A stretch of DNA of 64,000 nucleotides from Sphingomonas parva (ex Maeng et al. 2020). Lineage in GTDB: Bacteria > Pseudomonadota > Alphaproteobacteria > Sphingomonadales > Sphingomonadaceae. The stretch is from assembly GCF_004564275.1 (NCBI RefSeq), contig NZ_SPDV01000007.1, positions 124,001 to 188,000 of the forward strand, in the 5' to 3' direction. Below the pieces are notes generated by a model. The model saw nothing but the letters and a program-made list of their open reading frames with translations, was not told the DNA's origin and did no database searches. The position numbers and the translations under genes were made by a program. Positions 44,589 through 64,000 of the stretch are shown piece by piece. Within the stretch, counting starts at the first letter, position 1. Each line of letters opens with the position of its first letter.

Positions 44589-44675
44589 GCGGTCGTGGCG
44601 GAACTGGTAGACGCGCAGCGTTGAGGTCGCTGTGGCCGAAAGGCCGTGGAAGTTCGAGTCTTCTCGACCGCACCA
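44589..44675 (+). tRNA. tRNA-Leu (anticodon GAG)
   Basis: The acceptor stem GCGGTCG pairs with CGACCGC, and the A discriminator is followed by an encoded CCA. The anticodon stem CAGCG/CGCTG closes the loop TTGAGGT, anticodon GAG at 44623-44625 (reads CUU/CUC). The variable arm TGGCCGAAAGGCC is long, as in class II leucine tRNAs, and the T arm has GTTCGAGTC. A CCTGCC/GGCAGG hairpin (44680-44697) follows. Confidence 0.97.
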
Positions 44676-54569: not shown

Positions 54570-55283
54570 TCAACCGCGTGCGTCGATCCGGTTCCAGATC
54601 GGATCGGCGATCGTCGCGAGAAAGGCCGCGTGCGCCGCCAGCTCTTCCTCGCTCGGCGCATGCGGCCGCGGCGGGCGCACCGTCGCAACCAGCCGTTCGG
54701 GAACAAACCCTTCGGAAGGCTGAGGATTCTTCTCTTCCACGATGATCGTGTCGGCGAGCGAAAAGCCGATCTGGCGGCCGCCGGTCAGCTCCACATAACA
54801 TTGGGCGAGCAGCTGCGCGTCGATCAGCGCGCCGTGCTTGATGCGCAGGCTGCGGTCGACGCCGAACCGTGTACAAAGTGCGTCGAGACTGTGCTTCGCG
54901 CCCGGATGCTTGGTGCGGGCGAGCGCCAGCGTGTCGATCATCCGGCTCATGCAGATCAGCGGGCGGGCGCAATTGCCGAGCTCGTGATTGAGAAAGCCGA
55001 AATCGAAGCTCGCATTGTGCGCCACCAGCGGCGCGTCGCCGAGGAAATCGAGCAGCTCCTCCACTTTCTCGTGGAAGCGCGGCTTGTCCGAGAGGAAGAT
55101 CTCGGACAGGCCGTGCACCGCTTCCGCGCCGGCGGGCATCGAGCGGTCGGGATTGAAATAAGCGTGGAAGGTGCGGCCGGTCTCGACCCGGTTGACCAGC
55201 TCGACGCAACCGATCTCCACCATGCGATCGCCGGTGAGCGGATTGAGGCCGGTGGTTTCGGTGTCGAAGACGATTTCGCGCAT
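54570..55283 (-). CDS. dnaQ: DNA polymerase III epsilon subunit
   Basis: A 237-residue proofreading exonuclease of DEDDh type. D7 and E9 are in IVFDTETTGL, HNASFDFGFL gives the second aspartate, and the catalytic His and last Asp are in HGALIDAQLLA. It is 7 bases downstream of coaE in the gene run leaving the putative origin leftward. Confidence 0.96.
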   Translation of the reverse strand: MREIVFDTETTGLNPLTGDRMVEIGCVELVNRVETGRTFHAYFNPDRSMPAGAEAVHGLSEIFLSDKPRFHEKVEELLDFLGDAPLVAHNASFDFGFLNHELGNCARPLICMSRMIDTLALARTKHPGAKHSLDALCTRFGVDRSLRIKHGALIDAQLLAQCYVELTGGRQIGFSLADTIIVEEKNPQPSEGFVPERLVATVRPPRPHAPSEEELAAHAAFLATIADPIWNRIDARG

Positions 55284-55290
55284 GGCCGGC

Positions 55291-55881
55291 TTATGAGTTC
55301 CCGGGCTCGCTCAGACAAGCAACGATGCGGCGAACCGAGTCGCGAGTCTGCTCTAATGAGCCTCCCGTGTCGATCACGAAGTCGGCGCGCGCCCGCTTCT
55401 CCGCATCGGGGAGCTGCTGCGCGAGAATCCGCGCGAACTTCTCTTCGGTCATTCCCGGACGGGCCAGGACGCGATCGCGCTGGACGGCGGCCGGCGCGGA
55501 CACGACCGCGATCCTGTCGACGTCGCGCCACCCCTCTTTCTCGAACAGCAGAGGGATGTCGAGCACGACCAGCGGCGCCGCGGCGTTGGCGGCGAGGAAG
55601 GATTCGCGCTCCCGGGCAACGGCGGGATGGACCAGAGCCTCGAGCCGGCGGAGTGCCTCGGGCGCGGCGAGCACCCGCTCGGCGAGGGCGCCGCGATCGA
55701 CTCCGCGTGCGCTGGTAGTGCCGGGGAAATGAGTTTCGATCTCCGCGACGAGAGCGCCTTCCGGTCCCTGGAGGCGATGAACCGCCGCATCGGCATCGAA
55801 CACCGGCACGCCTTGCGCCGCGAACATCGCCGCGACCGTCGACTTGCCCATCCCGATCGAGCCGGTGAGGCCGAGCTTCAT
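55291..55881 (-). CDS. coaE: Dephospho-CoA kinase
   Basis: Last step of coenzyme A synthesis; 196 residues. P-loop GLTGSIGMGKSTVAAMF at the N terminus, VFDADAAVHRL for substrate, and LDIPLLFEKEGW. Its ATG overlaps the aroE stop (ATGA). Confidence 0.96.
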   Translation of the reverse strand: MKLGLTGSIGMGKSTVAAMFAAQGVPVFDADAAVHRLQGPEGALVAEIETHFPGTTSARGVDRGALAERVLAAPEALRRLEALVHPAVARERESFLAANAAAPLVVLDIPLLFEKEGWRDVDRIAVVSAPAAVQRDRVLARPGMTEEKFARILAQQLPDAEKRARADFVIDTGGSLEQTRDSVRRIVACLSEPGNS

Positions 55882-56699
55882 GACGTCAGCAGTGCCCGCA
55901 GCTCGTCGTCGCAATCGGCCGGTGGAGCCGCGCCGAAGAAGAGGCGGAACGCGGATTTCGCTTGGCCGATCAGCATCGCCAGACCGTCGACCGGCGCCAG
56001 GCCCAGCGATGCCGCGCGGGCGAGCAGGGCGGTGTCCACCGGCGCATAGACCATGTCGAGCACGAACGCGTTCCCGGCCATGCTGCCGAGGCCGGCGAGC
56101 AGTGACTCCGGCATCGGATCGAAGCCCGTCATGCCGAGCGGCGTCGCGTTCAACAGGCCGGTCGCGTCGGCGAGAGCGTCCGTCGCCGCGCTGAAGGGGA
56201 GGGCTCTGCCTTGGCAGCCGAATGCGGCGAGCAGGTCTTCGGCCTTCGCGGGGTCTCGGGCGACCACGCGGATGTCCTGGACGCGCGCCTGCTTCAGCCA
56301 TGCCATCGCCGCACGTGCCGCGCCCCCGGCTCCAACCAGCACGATCGGGCCGTCTGCGCGACAGCCGCCGAGCGCCTCCGAGATGCCCAGCACGTCGGTG
56401 TTGAGCCCGCGCAAGCGGCCGTTCTCCGGCACGATGCAGTTCACGGCACCCACCTCGACGCTGTCGACGGCATCGAGTTGATCGATCACGGCGATCTTGT
56501 GGGGAATCGTGACGTTGCACCCGCGCCAGTCGCCATCCCCCCGGCGCGACCCGAGGAACTCGGCGAGTCCGTCCTGGGCCACCTGGGTACGGCAATAGCG
56601 TCCCGGCAGGCCGAGGCGCTCAAGCCATAGGCCGTGGATCAGCGGCGACTTGGAATGGGCGATCGGATCACCGATCACCTCGGCATAAGGAACGCTCAT
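55878..56699 (-). CDS. aroE: Shikimate dehydrogenase
   Basis: Reduces 3-dehydroshikimate with NADPH; 273 residues. SKSPLIHGLWLERLGLPG binds shikimate, the catalytic lysine is in CNVTIPHKIAV, the nucleotide-binding loop is LVGAGGAARAA, and NATPLGM follows. The ATG shares its A with the maf stop (TGATG). Confidence 0.95.
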   Translation of the reverse strand: MSVPYAEVIGDPIAHSKSPLIHGLWLERLGLPGRYCRTQVAQDGLAEFLGSRRGDGDWRGCNVTIPHKIAVIDQLDAVDSVEVGAVNCIVPENGRLRGLNTDVLGISEALGGCRADGPIVLVGAGGAARAAMAWLKQARVQDIRVVARDPAKAEDLLAAFGCQGRALPFSAATDALADATGLLNATPLGMTGFDPMPESLLAGLGSMAGNAFVLDMVYAPVDTALLARAASLGLAPVDGLAMLIGQAKSAFRLFFGAAPPADCDDELRALLTS

Positions 56700-57292
56700 C
56701 AACGTGCCAGATAGCCGCGCTCGCGCAATTGGGCGAGCAGGGGAAGGAGAGGCATGCCGAGCACGGCGAAATGGCTGCCCTCGATCCGGTCGAACAATTG
56801 CGCGCCGGGCCCTTCGACACGGTAGCCGCCGACGCTCCAGCGGATGTGCTCATATTCGCGGTCGAGATAGGCTTCGAGGAACGCCTCGCTCAGCGGCCGC
56901 ATCGACAGCTCGACCGTCTCGCAACACCACCAGGCCGCCACGCCGGCCTCGGCGATCACCGCGGCCGAATGGAGCCGGTGGGTGGTGCCGGCCAGCGCAC
57001 GCAACTGCGTCTTTGCATCGTCGCGCGATCTCGGCTTGCTGAGCATCGTTCCATCCGGCAGTTCCAGCGTCTGGTCGGAGCCGAGCACGAGGTCGCCCGC
57101 CACGCCCGTGACCGAGATCGCCTTGAGCTGGGCCAGCTCCTCGGCGATGCCACGCGCGTCGAATCCGGCGCCGCTGAGCCCCGCCTTGGCCGCTTCCTCG
57201 TCGAGCGAAGCCTCGGCTGTGTCGAACGGGACGCCGGCGCGGGCCAGCATCTCGCGCCGCGTGCTGCTCTTCGAAGCCAGCAGCAGCCTCAC
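56699..57292 (-). CDS. maf: Maf-family nucleoside triphosphate pyrophosphatase
   Basis: A 197-residue house-cleaning pyrophosphatase. N-terminal RLLLASKSSTRREML replaces the usual SPRR loop by SSTRR. VLGSDQTLELPDG carries the catalytic aspartate, with LSKPRSRDDAKTQL after it. GTG start overlapping the ppsR stop (GTGA). Confidence 0.93.
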   Translation of the reverse strand: MRLLLASKSSTRREMLARAGVPFDTAEASLDEEAAKAGLSGAGFDARGIAEELAQLKAISVTGVAGDLVLGSDQTLELPDGTMLSKPRSRDDAKTQLRALAGTTHRLHSAAVIAEAGVAAWWCCETVELSMRPLSEAFLEAYLDREYEHIRWSVGGYRVEGPGAQLFDRIEGSHFAVLGMPLLPLLAQLRERGYLAR

Positions 57293-58119
57293 CGATTTGC
57301 CCCGTTCGCCGCCGCATCGATCCGCTCGTTGCACAATTTCACGATCGCGTAGGCGGTCTCCTCGATCGAGCGGCGCGTCACGTCGATCACCGGCCAGGCA
57401 TTGTCGGCGAACAGCCGGCGGGCGAAAGCGAGCTCCGCCGCCACCGCGTCCGTGTCGACATAGTCGGTCTCCGGCGCCTGGTTCAGCGAGAGCAGCCGAT
57501 TGCGGCGGATCTGGATCAGCCGCTCGGGATTGGTGGTGAGGCCGACGACGAGGGGGTGCTTCAGGGTGAACAAATTGGTTGGCGGCGGCGCTTCCGGCAC
57601 CAGCGGAATGTTGGCGACCTTGTAGCCGCGGTTGGCGAGATAAATTGAAGTTGGGGTCTTGGAGGTGCGCGACACGCCGGCGAGGACGATGTCCGCCTCC
57701 TCCCAATTGTCCGATCCGATGCCGTCGTCATGGGCGATGCTGAACTGGATCGCGTCGACGCGCGCGAAATAGGCGGCGTCGAGCGCGTGCTGCCGTCCCG
57801 GCCGCGCCTTGGCCTGCTGGTTGAGCACCACCGAGAGAGCGTCCACCACCGGGTCGAGCGCCGAAACCGCATGGATGCCGCGGCGGCGGGTCTTCTGCTC
57901 GAGCTCGCGGCGGATGTTGCTGTTCACCAGCGTGTAAAGAACGAGGCCCGGGCGCCGCTCGATATCGTCCAGCACCCGGTCGAGATGCCCCTCGGAGCGG
58001 ACCATCGGCCAGAGATGGCGGACGACATCGATTTCGTCGAACTGGGCGAGGCAGGCCTTGGCGATCAGCTCCAGCGTCTCGCCGGTCGAATCCGACAGGA
58101 GATGGAGGTGGAGCGTCAC
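57289..58119 (-). CDS. ppsR: PEP synthase / pyruvate phosphate dikinase regulatory protein
   Basis: A 276-residue DUF299 protein that phosphorylates and dephosphorylates a threonine of PEP synthase or pyruvate phosphate dikinase. Begins LHLHLLSDSTGETLELIAKA; the P-loop is GVSRTSKTPTSIYLANRG. The GTG start is at the border of the putative oriC. It is the first gene on the left side of the origin and is translationally coupled to maf. This matches RP001 in Rickettsia, if my recall is correct. Confidence 0.93.
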   Translation of the reverse strand: MTLHLHLLSDSTGETLELIAKACLAQFDEIDVVRHLWPMVRSEGHLDRVLDDIERRPGLVLYTLVNSNIRRELEQKTRRRGIHAVSALDPVVDALSVVLNQQAKARPGRQHALDAAYFARVDAIQFSIAHDDGIGSDNWEEADIVLAGVSRTSKTPTSIYLANRGYKVANIPLVPEAPPPTNLFTLKHPLVVGLTTNPERLIQIRRNRLLSLNQAPETDYVDTDAVAAELAFARRLFADNAWPVIDVTRRSIEETAYAIVKLCNERIDAAANGANR

Positions 58120-58134
58120 GTGCGAAAAACCCCC

Positions 58135-58143
58135 TGTGGATAA
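58135..58143 (-). other. Perfect DnaA box
   Basis: TGTGGATAA on the forward strand, that is TTATCCACA on the reverse: nine of nine to the DnaA box consensus. It is 16 bases from the ppsR start. Confidence 0.7.
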
Positions 58144-58214
58144 GCGTGTTGAAAGCGCTAGCGGAAGCTTCGGGACGGTTGCAAGCGAACCATTTGTGCC
58201 CGTTAACCGCAATT

Positions 58215-58223
58215 CGATCCACA
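58215..58223 (+). other. Degenerate DnaA box
   Basis: CGATCCACA differs from the Caulobacter G-box TGATCCACA at one base and from TTATCCACA at two. Lies 72 bases from the perfect box and in the opposite orientation. Confidence 0.45.
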
Positions 58224-58402
58224 GAGTCGCAAAGACGGGAAACTTTCCCCGGGCGCGATGTGGAAGCTGGGGATGATTTTCGCGAATCCGCGGGCTTCTG
58301 CGCCGCTCCCAGAGTCAAGCTGTTTGCAAAAGCGGGTGGAGCGAATAAACCCCAGCTTCCGGCACCCTACAACCTTCATCAGACTCTCTTCTAATAAGAC
58401 TC
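58224..58402. promoter_or_regulatory. Cluster of five GANTC sites
   Basis: GAGTC at 58224, GAATC at 58284, GAGTC at 58312, GACTC at 58382 and GACTC at 58398 (first bases). CcrM methylates GANTC in alphaproteobacteria. Five sites in 179 bases is dense for GC-rich DNA, where about one per 300 bases is expected by composition (my estimate). Confidence 0.6.
58262..58360. repeat. Inverted repeat in the origin region
   Basis: GGAAGCTGGGG (58262-58272) is the exact reverse complement of CCCCAGCTTCC (58350-58360), 77 bases apart. A related GGAAGCTTC stands at 58163-58171. It could be a paired protein-binding site or a cruciform base. No protein is assigned. Confidence 0.5.
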
Positions 58403-58414
58403 TTAGATAGAGAG
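58384..58414. repeat. AT-rich imperfect hairpin before hemE
   Basis: CTCTCTTCTAA (58384-58394) pairs with TTAGATAGAGAG (58403-58414) with one bulged base, loop TAAGACTC. It is the AT-richest stretch of the gap. Either the DNA unwinding element or part of the hemE promoter/leader. Confidence 0.4.
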
Positions 58415-58436
58415 GAGAGCGGAGCCCGCGCCTTTC

Positions 58437-59462
58437 ATGCCTTCGTCCGACAAGCTCCTGCTCAGCGTGCTGAGCGGGAAAAAGCCCGAGAAAACACCGA
58501 TTTGGCTGATGCGCCAAGCCGGCCGCTACCTTCCCGAATATCGTGCGTTGCGCGCCGAGAAAGGCGGCTTCCTCGATCTCGCGACCGATCCTCAGGCCGC
58601 AGCCGAGATCACCCTCCAGCCGATCCGGCGCTTCGGTTTCGATGGCGCGATCCTGTTCTCCGACATCCTGATCGTGCCCTGGGCCCTGGGCCAGGACCTG
58701 CGCTTCGAGGCCGGCGAGGGACCGCGCCTGTCGCCGCCGCTGGTCGGGGCGAGCCTCGCCTCGCTGGATCGCGTTCCCGCGCGTCTCGAGCCGGTTTTTC
58801 AAACTGTGGAGAAAGTCGCCGCCTCGTTGCCCGCTGAGACGACCTTCCTGGGCTTCGCGGGAAGTCCCTGGACGGTGGCGACCTACATGGTCGCGGGAAA
58901 GGGCAGCAAGGATCAGGGCGAGACCCGCCGCAAGGCCTATGCCGATCCACAGGCGTTCGGCGAGATTGTGGAGGCGGTCGCGGAGATGACCGTCGATTAC
59001 CTTTCGCGCCAGATCGAGGCAGGCGTCGACGCGGTCCAGCTGTTCGACAGCTGGGCGGGCTCGCTCTCGCCGGCTCAGTTCGAACGCTGGGTGATCGCGC
59101 CGACCGCGCGGATCGTATCGGCGCTGAAGGCCCGCCATCCCGGTGTGCCGGTGATCGGCTTCCCCAAGGGCGCAGGGGGCAAGCTGCCCGCTTATGCGCG
59201 GGAGACGGGGGTCGACGCGCTGGGGCTCGACGAAACGGTCGATCCCCGATGGGCGGCCGAAATGCTGCCGCCGGATCTGCCGGTGCAGGGCAATCTCGAT
59301 CCCCTCGCGTTGATCGCCGGCGGCGAGGCGCTTGCCAGCGCGGTCGACCGCATCCTATTGAGCTTCGCGAACCGACCGCACGTCTTCAACCTGGGGCATG
59401 GCATCTTGCCGGACACGCCGATTCCGCATGTCGAGCAGCTCATCGGCTTGGTGCGTCGGTGA
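58437..59462 (+). CDS. hemE: Uroporphyrinogen decarboxylase
   Basis: Decarboxylates uroporphyrinogen III to coproporphyrinogen III; 341 residues. Active-site blocks WLMRQAGRYLPEYR, FGFDGAILFSDILIVPWALG, and LGFAGSPWTVATYMV; QLFDSWAGSLSP and GILPDTPIPHVEQLI end the fold. First gene to the right of the putative origin. Its stop overlaps the hemJ GTG (GTGA). Confidence 0.97.
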   Translation: MPSSDKLLLSVLSGKKPEKTPIWLMRQAGRYLPEYRALRAEKGGFLDLATDPQAAAEITLQPIRRFGFDGAILFSDILIVPWALGQDLRFEAGEGPRLSPPLVGASLASLDRVPARLEPVFQTVEKVAASLPAETTFLGFAGSPWTVATYMVAGKGSKDQGETRRKAYADPQAFGEIVEAVAEMTVDYLSRQIEAGVDAVQLFDSWAGSLSPAQFERWVIAPTARIVSALKARHPGVPVIGFPKGAGGKLPAYARETGVDALGLDETVDPRWAAEMLPPDLPVQGNLDPLALIAGGEALASAVDRILLSFANRPHVFNLGHGILPDTPIPHVEQLIGLVRR

Positions 59463-59914
59463 TCGATGGCATCGAAAGCGCGCTCACTTTGACCTACGCC
59501 TGGCTCAAGGCAGGCCATGTTATCTTCGTGATCTTCTGGATCGCCGGGATGTTCATGCTGCCGCGTTATTACGTCTATCATCAGGAATCGGCGCCCGGCT
59601 CCGAGGAGGAGAAGCGCTGGATCGACCGTGAGGCCAAGCTCCGGCACATCATCATCACGCCTTCCATGATCCTGGTCTGGGTGCTGGGCCTTGCTCTGGC
59701 CTGGACCAGCGGCGCCTATACCGAAGGCTGGCTGCACGCGAAGGTGGCGCTCGTGCTCGTCCTCTCGGCTTACCATGGCTGGTTGATCGGCTATGGCCGC
59801 AAGCTCGCCAAGGGAGAGCGTCCGCTGAGCGGCAAGGCGCTGCGCATCATGAATGAGCTCCCCGGTCTCGCCACGGTGCTGATCGTCATCCTGGTGATCG
59901 TAAAGCCGTTCTGA
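59459..59914 (+). CDS. hemJ: Protoporphyrinogen oxidase HemJ
   Basis: A 151-residue membrane protein of the HemJ/CopD-like family (formerly UPF0093) with four helices. The first carries the conserved His in LKAGHVIFVIFWIAGMFMLP (H20). The conserved Lys is in WLHAKVALVLVLSAYHGW. It replaces HemG/HemY in many alphaproteobacteria, oxidising protoporphyrinogen IX. Coupled to hemE and followed by rho, the usual alphaproteobacterial order. Confidence 0.92.
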   Translation: MIDGIESALTLTYAWLKAGHVIFVIFWIAGMFMLPRYYVYHQESAPGSEEEKRWIDREAKLRHIIITPSMILVWVLGLALAWTSGAYTEGWLHAKVALVLVLSAYHGWLIGYGRKLAKGERPLSGKALRIMNELPGLATVLIVILVIVKPF

Positions 59915-59934
59915 CCCGCCCGAAGAGCCGGGTC

Positions 59935-59954
59935 ACCCCGGCGATAGCCGGGGT
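59935..59954. repeat. Palindromic repeat, ACCCCGGC GATA GCCGGGGT
   Basis: A perfect 8-base stem with a 4-base loop, 20 bases after hemJ. Elements of this form are common between sphingomonad genes. There is no T tract, so it may act with Rho rather than as an intrinsic terminator. Confidence 0.55.
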
Positions 59955-60037
59955 CTCAGCGAGGCTTCGTACGTCAATCGATCGCCCGTCCCGTGAGATC
60001 GCGCCCCCCGGGTCGCACGAATCCCGCGGCCCTGCTG

Positions 60038-60066
60038 TTGACTTGGATCGGGTCGGAGCCTAACTC
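60038..60066 (+). promoter_or_regulatory. Predicted promoter of rho
   Basis: TTGACT (60038-60043), a 17-base spacer, TAACTC (60061-60066). Strong -35 and fair -10. Transcription would begin near 60073 and give a leader of about 100 bases that is rich in C and poor in G in its second half. Confidence 0.5.
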
Positions 60067-60173
60067 CACACAAGTCGTTGGCCTGCCGTCCGTGTAGGCG
60101 ATCACCCCAAATCGTGAATCCTCTCGCGAACCGCACGACACCCGCACTCCATTTTTGCCGAGTTCTCCCCCCG

Positions 60174-61430
60174 ATGCATCTCAAGGACCTGAAGCTCAAA
60201 TCCCCCGCCGACCTCGTCGCCATGGCCGAGGCGATCGGCATCGAGGGGGCCTCGACCCTGCGCAAGCAGGAGCTGATGTTCTCCATCCTCAAGGTCCAGG
60301 CCGAGAACGGCCAGGAAATCATGGGCATGGGAACGATCGAGGTGCTTCCGGACGGCTTCGGCTTCCTGCGCTCGCCGGAAGCGAACTATCTCGCCGGTCC
60401 CGACGACATCTACGTCGCGCCGAACCAGGTCAGGAAGTTCGGCCTGCGCACCGGCGACACGGTCGAGGGCGAGATCCGCGGGCCCAAGGAGGGCGAGCGC
60501 TACTTCAGCCTCGTCCGCGTCAGCCAGATCAATTACGACGATCCGGACGCCGTCCGCCACCGCGTCAATTTCGACAATCTCACCCCGCTCTATCCGAACC
60601 AGAAGCTGCGGCTCGACACGCTCGATCCGACGGTGAAGGACAAGTCGGCGCGGGTGATCGACATCATCTCGCCGCAGGGCAAGGGCCAGCGCGCGCTGAT
60701 CGTCGCGCCGCCCCGTACTGGCAAGACCGTGCTCCTCCAGAACATCGCCAAGGCGATCACCGACAACCACCCGGAAGTGTTCCTGATCGTGCTGCTGATC
60801 GACGAGCGGCCGGAGGAAGTCACCGACATGCAGCGATCGGTGCGCGGCGAGGTCGTCTCCTCGACCTTCGACGAGCCCGCCAGCCGGCACGTCCAGGTCG
60901 CCGAGATGGTGATCGAGAAGGCGAAGCGTCTGGTCGAGCACAAGAAGGATGTCGTGATCCTGCTCGATTCGATCACCCGCCTCGGCCGCGCCTACAACAC
61001 GGTCGTTCCCTCGTCGGGCAAGGTGCTGACCGGCGGTGTCGACGCGAATGCGCTGCAGCGCCCGAAGCGCTTCTTCGGCGCGGCCCGCAACATAGAGGAA
61101 GGCGGCTCGCTCTCGATCATTGCTACCGCGCTGATCGACACCGGCTCGAAGATGGACGAGGTCATCTTCGAGGAGTTCAAGGGCACCGGCAACTCGGAGA
61201 TCGTGCTCGACCGCAAGGTTGCCGACAAGCGCATCTTCCCGTCGCTCGACGTGGGCCGTTCCGGCACCCGCAAGGAGGAGCTGCTCGTCGATCAGGCGAC
61301 GCTCTCGAAGATGTGGGTCCTGCGCCGCATCCTCATGCAGATGGGCACCGTCGACGCGATGCAGTTCCTGCTCGACAAGATGAAGGACGCCAAGTCGAAC
61401 GAGGACTTCTTCGCCTCGATGAACTCGTAA
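60174..61430 (+). CDS. rho: Transcription termination factor Rho
   Basis: A 418-residue hexameric RNA helicase. The N-terminal domain is [20 protein letters not shown]. The RNA-binding CSD has [12 protein letters not shown] near residue 62. Walker A is [15 protein letters not shown] near 178. Q-loop and R-loop blocks are [19 protein letters not shown] and [17 protein letters not shown]. Follows hemE-hemJ, with its own promoter and a C-rich leader. Confidence 0.98.
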
Positions 61431-61662: not shown

Positions 61663-62643
61663 TTAAGGAAGCAGCACCGTCGAGCCGGTGGTCGCGCGGC
61701 TCTCGATCGCCCGGTGGGCGTCCGCGGCCTCGAGGAGCGGGAAGGTCGCACCGATCCTCACCTGCACCACGCCTTTGTCGATCATCTCGAACAGTCGCGC
61801 CGCCGAGGCCCGCATCTCGTCCGGCGTGGCGCAATAGTCGCCGAGCGTCGGCCGGGTGACGAAGATCGAGCCGGCGCTGAGCAGGTCGAGCGCAGTGAAC
61901 GGCGGCACCGCTCCAGAAGCATTGCCATAGGTGACGACGAGGCCCCGCCGCGCCACCGAGCCCAGCGAGGCCGGCCACGAGGCCGCGCCGACGCCGTCGA
62001 GGACGACTTCGACCCCCTTGCCGCCGGTCAGCACCCGCACTTCCGCGGCGAGCTCGTCGAGCGGGCAGCAAAGGGCATGGTCGGCGCCGAGTTCGCGCGC
62101 GATCGCGGCCTTCCGACTGTCTCCGGCATGGGCGATCACGGTTGCGCCGACGGACTTCAACCAGGGCACCAGGATCGATCCGACACCCCCGGCGGCGGCA
62201 TGGACGAGAACATTGTCTCCGGGCGAAACCCTGGCGCAGCGTTCGATAAGATATTCGGCCGTCGTGCCCTTCAGCATCGTCGCGGCCGCCTGCTCGGCGG
62301 TAAGCGCCTCCGGTAGTTTCACCAGCCGCGCCGCATCGACCACCCGATGTGTCGAATAGGCTCCCAATGGGCCGGTAAAGTAACCGATCCGGTTTCCTTC
62401 CCGAAACTCGGTGACACCCTCGCCCACCGCCTCGACGATGCCGGCCGCCTCGTTCCCGAGGCCCGAGGGCAGGGGGACCTTGTAGAGGCCAGAGCGATGA
62501 TAGGTGTCGATGTAGTTGAGCCCGATCGCCTCATGGCGGACCAGAACCTGCCCGGGGCCCGGGCTGGGAGGATCGATGTGCTCGGCCGCCAGGATCTCCG
62601 GACCGCCCGTTTCGCGCAGGCAGAAAGCGTATGGCTCGCTCAC
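61663..62643 (-). CDS. Quinone oxidoreductase (zinc-independent MDR family)
   Basis: A 326-residue NADPH:quinone reductase. LNYIDTYHRSGLYKVPLPSG and GNEAAGIVEAVGEGV are in the catalytic domain. The dinucleotide-binding loop is HAAAGGVGSILVPWLKSVGA, and VLDGVGAASWPASL follows. It lacks structural zinc cysteines. The GTG start overlaps the stop of the dienelactone hydrolase gene (GTGA). Confidence 0.92.
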   Translation of the reverse strand: MSEPYAFCLRETGGPEILAAEHIDPPSPGPGQVLVRHEAIGLNYIDTYHRSGLYKVPLPSGLGNEAAGIVEAVGEGVTEFREGNRIGYFTGPLGAYSTHRVVDAARLVKLPEALTAEQAAATMLKGTTAEYLIERCARVSPGDNVLVHAAAGGVGSILVPWLKSVGATVIAHAGDSRKAAIARELGADHALCCPLDELAAEVRVLTGGKGVEVVLDGVGAASWPASLGSVARRGLVVTYGNASGAVPPFTALDLLSAGSIFVTRPTLGDYCATPDEMRASAARLFEMIDKGVVQVRIGATFPLLEAADAHRAIESRATTGSTVLLP

Positions 62644-63332
62644 CCGATGTGCTCCGCGAGGAAGGCCTCGGTGCGGCTGTCCGCGAGCCGGGCCGAGTTC
62701 TCGCTCCGCCGTTTGCCCATCTCCGCTGCGAAGCCGTGATCCTCGCCGGGATAGTCGTGGATGGTGACGCGGGGATGATCGTCGAGCGCGGCGTGCACCT
62801 CCTGCTGCTGCTCGGGCGGGACGAAGTGATCGGCGCCGGCGACATGGATCAGCAGGGGCCGCGAGATCGCGTGTCGCTCGTGAAGAATGTTGGGCAGTCC
62901 CACGGGATAATAGCCGACGCTGGCATCGACGTCGGTACGGGCCGCGGTCATGTACGCGAGGCGGCCGCCGAGGCAGTATCCAACGCAGCCCACCTTCCCA
63001 CCGGCGCCGAGCCGGGAGCGGGCGGCGCGGATCGCCGCCTCGATGTCGGCGATTCCCTGATCCTGGTCGAAACGACCCATCAGATCCAGCGCGCGCTTGA
63101 ACTCGGCCTCGACGTCGGGATCGAGCTCGACTCCCGGCTCGAGCCGCCAGAACAGGTCCGGAGCGAGCGCCAGATAGCCTTTCTGCGCCCAGGTGTCGCA
63201 CTTGCGGCGAATGCCGGCGTTGATCCCGAAGATCTCCTGGATCACCACGATCGCGCCTTTTGGGGTGCCGTCCGGTTCGGCCAGATAGGCTTGGAAGCGC
63301 TCCTGGCCGCCGAGGGTTTCGATCCCGATCAT
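62640..63332 (-). CDS. Dienelactone hydrolase family protein
   Basis: A 230-residue alpha/beta hydrolase with the cysteine nucleophile typical of the family: GYCLGGRLAYM. The acid is in HVAGADHFVPP, the histidine in YPGEDHGFAAEMG, and an early glutamate in VVIQEIFGINAGIR. Coupled to the quinone oxidoreductase gene. Its natural substrate is unknown. Confidence 0.93.
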   Translation of the reverse strand: MIGIETLGGQERFQAYLAEPDGTPKGAIVVIQEIFGINAGIRRKCDTWAQKGYLALAPDLFWRLEPGVELDPDVEAEFKRALDLMGRFDQDQGIADIEAAIRAARSRLGAGGKVGCVGYCLGGRLAYMTAARTDVDASVGYYPVGLPNILHERHAISRPLLIHVAGADHFVPPEQQQEVHAALDDHPRVTIHDYPGEDHGFAAEMGKRRSENSARLADSRTEAFLAEHIG

Positions 63333-63411: not shown

Positions 63412-63648
63412 ATGAAAATCACGGTGGATGTCGATTGCACGCCCGAGGAGGCGCGGCGCTTCATGGGCCTGCCTGATCTCACGCCGGTCCATAACGCTTA
63501 TGTCGAGCGGATGACCAAGGCGGTCAGCGAGGGCCTCACCGCCGAAGGCGCCGGCGAGCTGATGAAGAGCTGGGCGCCGATGAGCGACGCCGGACTCGCG
63601 ATGTGGCGAACGATGCTGGAGGGGATGAGCGGGCGGCGTGAAGGCTGA
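63412..63648 (+). CDS. DUF6489 small protein
   Basis: A 78-residue protein: [20 protein letters not shown] and [20 protein letters not shown], with a hydrophilic helix-rich end. I recall this as the small alphaproteobacterial DUF6489 family. It ends inside the start of mnmE (11-base overlap), which suggests coupling. Confidence 0.75.
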
Positions 63649-64000
63649 CGCCAGGACCATCTTTGCGCTCTCCACCGGGGCCCCGCCTGCGGCCATCGCC
63701 GTGGTGCGGATCAGTGGTCCCGACGCCGATCGAGCGCTCGCCAGTCTCGCCGTAGCCCCGCCTCCGCCGCGGACGGCGCGCCTGGCGGTTCTCCGCGGCG
63801 ACGGCGAGGTGTTCGATCGCGCGCTGGTGCTTCGCTTCCCCGGGCCGAACAGCGTCACCGGCGAGGATCTGGTCGAGCTTCATCTCCATGGCGGCCGTGC
63901 CGTCGTGGCCGCAGTGCTCGCCGCGCTCGCGCGCCAGGACGGGCTCCGGCCAGCCGAAGCGGGGGAGTTCACCCGCCGCGCCTTCGAGAACGGCCGGCTC
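63638..64000 (+). CDS. mnmE: tRNA modification GTPase MnmE, 5' part
   Basis: Only the first 121 codons are visible; the gene runs off the right edge. GTG start, then [36 protein letters not shown], and [20 protein letters not shown]. The tail [13 protein letters not shown] is the MnmE N-terminal THF-binding domain. The enzyme makes 5-taurino/cmnm5U34 with MnmG, usually next in the alphaproteobacterial origin cluster. Confidence 0.95.

Follow-up and report, generated by a model that had tools for sequence, protein, structure and literature searches.

A putative hemE-type chromosomal replication origin in a sphingomonad draft genome, with a triplet ladder beside its predicted melting site

The intergenic gap between the divergent genes ppsR and hemE (58120–58436) very probably holds the chromosomal replication origin (putative oriC), at the site known for alphaproteobacterial origins of the hemE/ppsR type. 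This assignment had been proposed by an earlier reading made from the sequence only (the sequence-only reading) and was supported here by the position of the gap, conservation of its DnaA boxes, an unstable duplex unwinding element (DUE), nearby parS-like sites and parAB, the polarity of the motif GGGNAGGG in most sampled relatives, and a remote dnaA. Coordinates refer to the window, i.e. the whole 64-kb stretch of DNA that was analysed, which comprises bases 124001–188000 of contig C7 (207,385 bases) in a draft genome of 4.49 Mb and 111 contigs. Its closest named relatives belong mainly to Sphingomonas, Sphingopyxis, Novosphingobium and Erythrobacter or are unnamed Alphaproteobacteria, and the genome is on this ground taken to be that of a sphingomonad. 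The position itself is ordinary and expected from relatives, and the gap adds one more putative origin of the hemE type. It also places the origin for a draft genome with dnaA elsewhere, where numbering or copy-number reasoning from dnaA would mislead. A ladder of triplets beside the DUE, which resembles the DnaA-trio array of Bacillus subtilis, is described as a more tentative lead.

Position and gene neighbourhood of the gap

The gap runs from the GTG start codon of ppsR (ending at 58119) to the ATG of hemE (58437), a distance of 317 bp, and has a G+C content of 0.555, with lower values in 33 of 63,684 windows of the same size. Its location between an RP001/DUF299 homologue and hemE, as claimed earlier, was borne out by the protein family models given in Table 1. 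Leftward from the gap, Pfam and NCBIfam models gave the order ppsR, maf, aroE, coaE and dnaQ; rightward, the order is hemE, hemJ, rho, two minus-strand genes, mnmE, mnmG, rsmG, parA and parB. Scores for aroE, maf and hemJ fell below the curated cut-offs of their NCBIfam models. The earlier flank order therefore stood, by Pfam, for dnaQ, coaE, aroE, maf, ppsR, hemE, hemJ and rho, but not for mnmE directly after rho, since two minus-strand genes, one alcohol-dehydrogenase-like and one for a dienelactone hydrolase, occupy the interval between them (61663–63332). Rfam models at gathering thresholds gave no match in 57000–60200. Elsewhere in the window, a tRNA-Leu (gag) gene lies at 44589–44675.

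Table 1. Features of the ppsR–hemE gap and its flanks (window coordinates; a dot marks features given without strand)
Feature	Coordinates	Strand	Evidence or remark
dnaQ, coaE, aroE, maf	54570–57289	-	Pfam, NCBIfam
ppsR (DUF299/RP001/COG1806 type; Kinase-PPPase)	57289–58119	-	PF03618, NF003742
Putative oriC, whole ppsR–hemE gap	58120–58436	.	Divergent ppsR/hemE arrangement kept in relatives
DnaA box 1, exact TTATCCACA, ppsR-proximal	58135–58143	-	TGTGGA aligned in 89/101 gaps, TGTGGATAA exact in 29/101
Conserved GCTAGCGGAA block adjoining box 1	58157–58166	.	CTAG aligned in 45/101 gaps
DnaA box 2, weak, G-box-like, CGATCCACA	58215–58223	+	CCACA core aligned in 53/101 gaps
DnaA box 3, decayed in window (GCTTCCACA)	58259–58267	-	TGTGG aligned in 60/101 gaps
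Central GANTC (GAATC), CcrM-type site	58284–58288	.	GANTC aligned in 77/101 gaps
IHF-like site (TCAAN4TT) GAGTCAAGCTGTTTGCAA	58312–58329	+	TCAAN4TT aligned in 58/101 gaps
AATAAACCCC block	58344–58353	+	CCC aligned in 93/101 gaps
Place of DUE-proximal (R1-type) DnaA box	58356–58364	+	[TA]TCCACAG aligned in 26/101 gaps
Triplet ladder zone: CTA CAA, one extra C, CTT CAT CAG	58367–58382	+	DnaA-trio-like; trio strand would be minus
DUE (predicted)	58374–58409	.	Least stable 36-mer; GANTC at 58382–58386 and 58398–58402
hemE	58437–59462	+	PF01208, TIGR01464
hemJ	59459–59914	+	PF03653; TIGR00701 131.4 bits, just below cut-off
rho	60171–61430	+	TIGR00767
mnmE, start only, runs off window end	63638–64000	+	L260:2239–3525

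The divergent arrangement of ppsR beside hemE was found in 75 of 80 loci from a search of genome contigs, in all 29 further loci laid out from a search of relatives, in all 20 sister-family loci and in all 29 others among the best 30 of 136 class-search matches. Four loci with full flank (L011, L038, L041 and L060) gave no ppsR match within 6 kb upstream of hemE. Unless stated otherwise, counts below refer to 101 distinct gaps (the family set), drawn from the genome-contig and relatives-search loci with the window included and three duplicate gaps removed; L011, L022, L038, L041 and L060 were dropped for want of a ppsR match (L022 is cut by a contig end), as was L014 (gap of 650, partial ppsR match). 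Among same-order genomes outside the family, 29 had a ppsR match, and 20 of these make up the sister-family sample. The class search covered 193 genomes, 136 with a match, and its best 30 loci, which comprise the window, 3 of the same family and 26 others, make up a sample weighted towards closer ppsR proteins. A sphingomonad-like hemE/ppsR locus also occurs in two records titled Bacillus sp. 2B10 (L053) and Microvirga sp. SRT01 (L008), titles that look wrong.

The origins of Caulobacter and Rickettsia prowazekii have been reported between hemE and COG1806 (PMC1914354), and an oriC near hemE has been predicted for Sphingopyxis granuli and for most Sphingomonadaceae in DoriC (PMC4741004). The predicted oriC of S. 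granuli TFA resembles the gap in its place near hemE, its DnaA boxes and its putative DUE (PMC4741004); it belongs to another organism, and parS, polarity, the IHF-like site and the ladder are additions of the present analysis.

DnaA boxes, predicted melting site and other conserved elements

The perfect DnaA box claimed by the sequence-only reading was confirmed as box 1, the sole exact copy of TTATCCACA in the window and one of nine in the 4.49-Mb draft. What is conserved is not the exact box as such, which is missing from the gap in three closed genomes of the same genus (G010, G012 and G023), and a single copy is weak evidence. The near G-box is also present, box 2 being one change from the G-box TGATCCACA; the window holds 25 one-change matches to TGATCCACA, the exact DnaA box included, so that a near G-box alone means little. 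The position of box 3 reads CTGTGGAT in many same-genus relatives. Exact DnaA boxes numbered 65, in 45 of the 101 distinct gaps (shuffle mean 0.1), and TCCACAG occurred in 217 copies in 97 gaps versus 3.7 in shuffles. Sphingomonas phyllosphaerae FA2 (G001) has five exact boxes genome-wide, three of them within 120 bp in the gap. As for the several DnaA boxes of a hemE-type oriC, one exact and two weak boxes were found in the window, and the array is kept in relatives. In a separate comparison, exact TTATCCACA was rarer than its reversed control in eight of eight genomes (9/17 in G000, 5/17 in G001, 8/12 in G002, 5/14 in G003, 6/13 in G010, 7/9 in G012, 16/20 in G018 and 7/10 in G023).

Of the 101 gaps, 44 have a box-like site with at most 2 mismatches that faces the DUE from no more than 55 bp before it, as against 6.6 in shuffles and 5 on the opposite strand. 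The corresponding figures are 18 (3.0 and 10) for the 20 sister-family gaps and 11 (2.4 and 7) for the 26 gaps of other orders among the best 30 of 136 loci. In the window, nothing before the DUE comes within 2 mismatches of a box, the best site having 3 and lying at another place; the position of the DUE-proximal box reads CTTCCGGCA, which is no recognisable box, and some relatives have TATCCACAG or TTTCCACAG there.

The AT-rich end noted earlier proved stronger than claimed, since the predicted DUE ranks first in instability among the 63,965 36-mers of the window. The least stable 36-mer was centred at most 90 bp from the hemE match in 97 of 101 gaps, and in the 24 bases before the DUE, G makes up only 3.4% of the top strand in the family set. 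The aligned stretch 58376–58412 holds GANTC in 70 of 101 gaps. The 13-mers of Escherichia coli contain GATC, and GANTC within the DUE stretch recalls them.

Dense GANTC sites were likewise confirmed, with 5 sites in 317 bp (Poisson P 0.0005), a density that is not unique to the gap, as 265 of 63,682 sliding windows, also near 51–52 and 53 kb, reach five sites. The motif occurs in all 101 gaps, in 493 copies (shuffles 154.8), and the central site is kept in all 25 rows of an alignment of the window's genus (window included). The genome has a match to the RAMA domain, which is found in CcrM-like enzymes; among 14 control genomes, only Caulobacter matches. GANTC sites have been reported within the Caulobacter origin, and loss of CcrM in Caulobacter left replication control unaltered (PMC3973325), so a methylation switch at the DUE is offered here as a passing thought.

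An IHF-alpha match above cut-off was found in the genome, and the IHF-like core TCAAN4TTR is present in 47 copies in 46 of 101 gaps versus 6.2 in shuffles. The copy in the window overlaps a GANTC and perhaps the hemE -35 region, and two of its positions do not fit WATCAN5WTR, which PMC1914354 uses as consensus. No CtrA site (TTAAN7TTAA, at most one mismatch) is present in the window, so Caulobacter-type CtrA control is not supported; some relatives of Caulobacter have few or no such sites (PMC1914354), and loss of ctrA in Sphingomonas melonis was reported to have no negative effect on growth (PMC8116508). The gap shares with Caulobacter crescentus Cori and alphaproteobacterial hemE/RP001 origins the flanking genes, DnaA boxes, a candidate IHF site and an AT-rich region (PMC1914354), but differs from Cori, which has five CtrA sites (PMC1914354) and moderate G-boxes with weak W-boxes (PMC4468827) where the window has an exact R-type box.

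Fixed blocks in the genus alignment (25 rows) are, in order, box 1, GCTAGCG, box 2, box 3, GANTC, a TCAAGCTGTT block, AATAAACCCC, a C- and A-rich stretch and the AT-rich end. The GCTAGCGGAA block is perhaps part of the ppsR promoter and the AATAAACCCC block perhaps the hemE -10 region. An AT-rich hairpin before hemE was considered and rejected, exact arms of at least 6 being found in 28 of 101 tails versus 12 to 17 in five shuffles, a mild excess. In five loci (L006, L007, L018, L047 and L053), a short hairpin of the type TCTTCT-loop-AGAAGA overlaps the apparent ribosome-binding site of hemE, whose start codon in these loci may be CTG.

Genome-scale markers and the place of the origin

The genome has two parS-like sites (at most 2 mismatches), each with one mismatch, at C7:188927 and 190875, 6.5–8.8 kb from the gap, and mnmE, mnmG, rsmG, parA and parB lie in their neighbourhood. 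In five of five relatives, all parS-like sites with 0–1 mismatch lie 5–19 kb from the gap; the few two-mismatch sites are farther away.

In other bacteria, the motif GGGNAGGG is polar and directed from the origin towards the terminus. Both this motif and GC skew were sampled at 20 stretches of 20 kb per chromosome in four relatives. With the origin fixed at the gap, agreement of GGGNAGGG was 57/65 in FA2, 57/63 in NAP1, 66/82 in G012 and 56/79 in G023, as compared with best values over all positions of 57, 57, 67 and 62, respectively. Polarity therefore fits an origin at the gap in three of the four relatives and less well in the fourth, G023, where the best fit (62 versus 56 of 79) lies 0.25–0.42 Mb from the gap. 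On the window's own contig, copies of GGGNAGGG on the left side have mixed orientations (12 forward, 15 reverse), and the short right part has a ratio of 6 to 0. The best fits of GC skew, which are weak and were made without a shuffled control, lay within one 20-kb step of the gap in FA2 and NAP1, at 16–76 kb from it in G023 and a long way from it in G012; as a sole test, GC skew was rejected as too weak in these genomes and wrong in one of four.

An origin elsewhere, e.g. next to dnaA, could draw on the standing of dnaA as the usual origin marker and on the skew of G012, which does not point to the gap. Against this, dnaA lies on another contig (C36) and is 0.4–1.8 Mb from the gap in five relatives, which agrees with a published remark on Sphingomonadales (PMC8116508), and in FA2 and G023 it is found near the terminus suggested by GGGNAGGG (L207, G001:C1:1242856–1244199, and L205, G023:C1:28–1362, respectively); we consider such a location extremely improbable. 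The G023 record begins at dnaA, some 1.4 Mb from the hemE/ppsR gap, and a numbering based on dnaA is misleading there. Hardly more credible is a gap that serves merely as the divergent ppsR/hemE promoter region, with DnaA, GcrA/CcrM or IHF acting as transcription regulators. The gap must indeed carry both promoters, its conserved TTTGCA/TTGGCA and TAA-CCC blocks resemble a hemE promoter, and intergenic DNA in this class is enriched in GANTC (PMC3973325); yet the size of the gap and its array of several boxes are conserved, its DUE is extreme, parS and parAB are close, and in most of the relatives sampled the switch in polarity falls at the gap or near it.

A triplet ladder beside the predicted melting site

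Just before the DUE lies a ladder of the motif 5'-CNA-3' (3'-GNT-5' on the other strand). Runs of at least three CNA units were found in 13 of 101 gaps of the family set versus 3.0 in shuffles, in 9 of 20 sister-family gaps versus 0.7 and, for other orders among the best 30 of 136 loci, in 12 of 26 versus 0.8. For C[AT]N, runs of at least three units occur in 77 of the 101 gaps and in 11 of the 20 from the sister family, where shuffles gave 23.9 and 3.9, respectively. These patterns were picked after viewing the sequences, 4 and then 13 being tested. In the family set, C recurs at spacing 3 (z 15) and at spacing 7 (z 10), the latter a sign of slip in the ladder, and the z-scores overstate independence because the rows are related by descent. 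The ladder of the window is imperfect, with two CNA units and then, shifted by one base, three of the C[AT]N type; forms in other relatives include CAACAACAACTACAA and CTACCACCACCACCA.

The DnaA-trio of B. subtilis is 3'-GAT-5' (5'-CTA-3' on the opposite strand), and its middle base is the most conserved (PMC8287927, PMC8235120). The ladder resembles a trio array in position and step, yet falls outside the published trio definition. As in the B. subtilis BUS, the order in relatives is box, spacer, triplet repeats and AT-rich DUE, the first base of the triplet (3'-G) and often the last (T-5') are shared, and some relatives have exact CTA repeats; unlike the BUS, the middle base is not kept as A, and in the window the DUE-proximal box is unrecognisable and the ladder out of step. 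The outer bases (first and third) are kept, as is the step of three, and the middle base is variable. DnaA may read the ladder as trios. More broadly, we tentatively suggest, at somewhat less than an even chance, that at hemE-type alphaproteobacterial origins DnaA opens the DNA on a variant trio ladder, 3'-GNT-5', with the middle adenine, the base regarded as defining the trio, relaxed, of which the sphingomonad family, window included, would have the most worn form. Trios without the middle adenine are suspected in PMC8287927, and the homologues named in its section 14, part 1, include no alphaproteobacterium. Among the papers listed, one listing being dominated by papers that lack the term, no report of alphaproteobacterial trios or of such a ladder was found outside the supplementary tables of PMC8287927.

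It is a serious possibility, if short of probable, that the gap is an origin whose ladder is not read by DnaA and instead belongs to the leader or promoter of hemE, serves in helicase loading or is just a G-poor strand, with an E. coli-like loop-back opening via the IHF-like site. The published trio rule (at least three NAN within 16 bp of a DnaA box) was not enriched, at 19 of 101 gaps versus 26.2 in controls, and in the window no NAN run of three lies by boxes with at most 2 mismatches, one run, CTTCTAATA, appearing when 4 are allowed. Three NAN before the DUE with no box condition were mildly enriched (54 of 101 gaps versus 40.5; 16 of 20 sister-family gaps versus 12.3; and, for other orders among the best 30 of 136 loci, 16 of 26 versus 12.3). 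The enrichment of the IHF-like core and the window's having only two CNA units in step point the same way. Three other results speak against this alternative. For other orders among the best 30 of 136 loci, the ladder adjoins the DUE even though the distance from DUE to hemE match varies from 37 to 117 bp; other low-stability spots in the same loci (587, 75 and 156 spots) have CNA runs of at least three in about 1% or less; and two gaps (L219 and L220, which share their final 130 bases yet count as two) contain exact CTACTACTA, the complement of canonical 3'-GAT-5' trios.

The order of elements in relatives is box array, IHF-like site, DUE-proximal box, triplet ladder and DUE. The E. coli oriC has a DUE, an R1-type box facing it, an IHF site and further boxes, all of which have likenesses here; it carries GATC in place of GANTC, and its flanking genes differ from hemE/ppsR. 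In the proposed course of initiation, DnaA would bind the box array (exact box 1, boxes 2 and 3, which are weaker, and an R1-type box next to the DUE, decayed here), and IHF could bend the DNA at the site between the array and the melting site. A DnaA filament would then extend on one strand across the triplet ladder, the AT-rich DUE would be opened, and the helicase would load there. The ladder is a testable lead, as the printed question of an adenine-free trio middle is open to tests with a scaffold and purified DnaA; it could interest specialists and may bear on how DNA opening begins in Alphaproteobacteria. One sister-family gap (L216) ends in a tail that reads CACCACCACCACCAG, i.e. five triplets at the ladder position.
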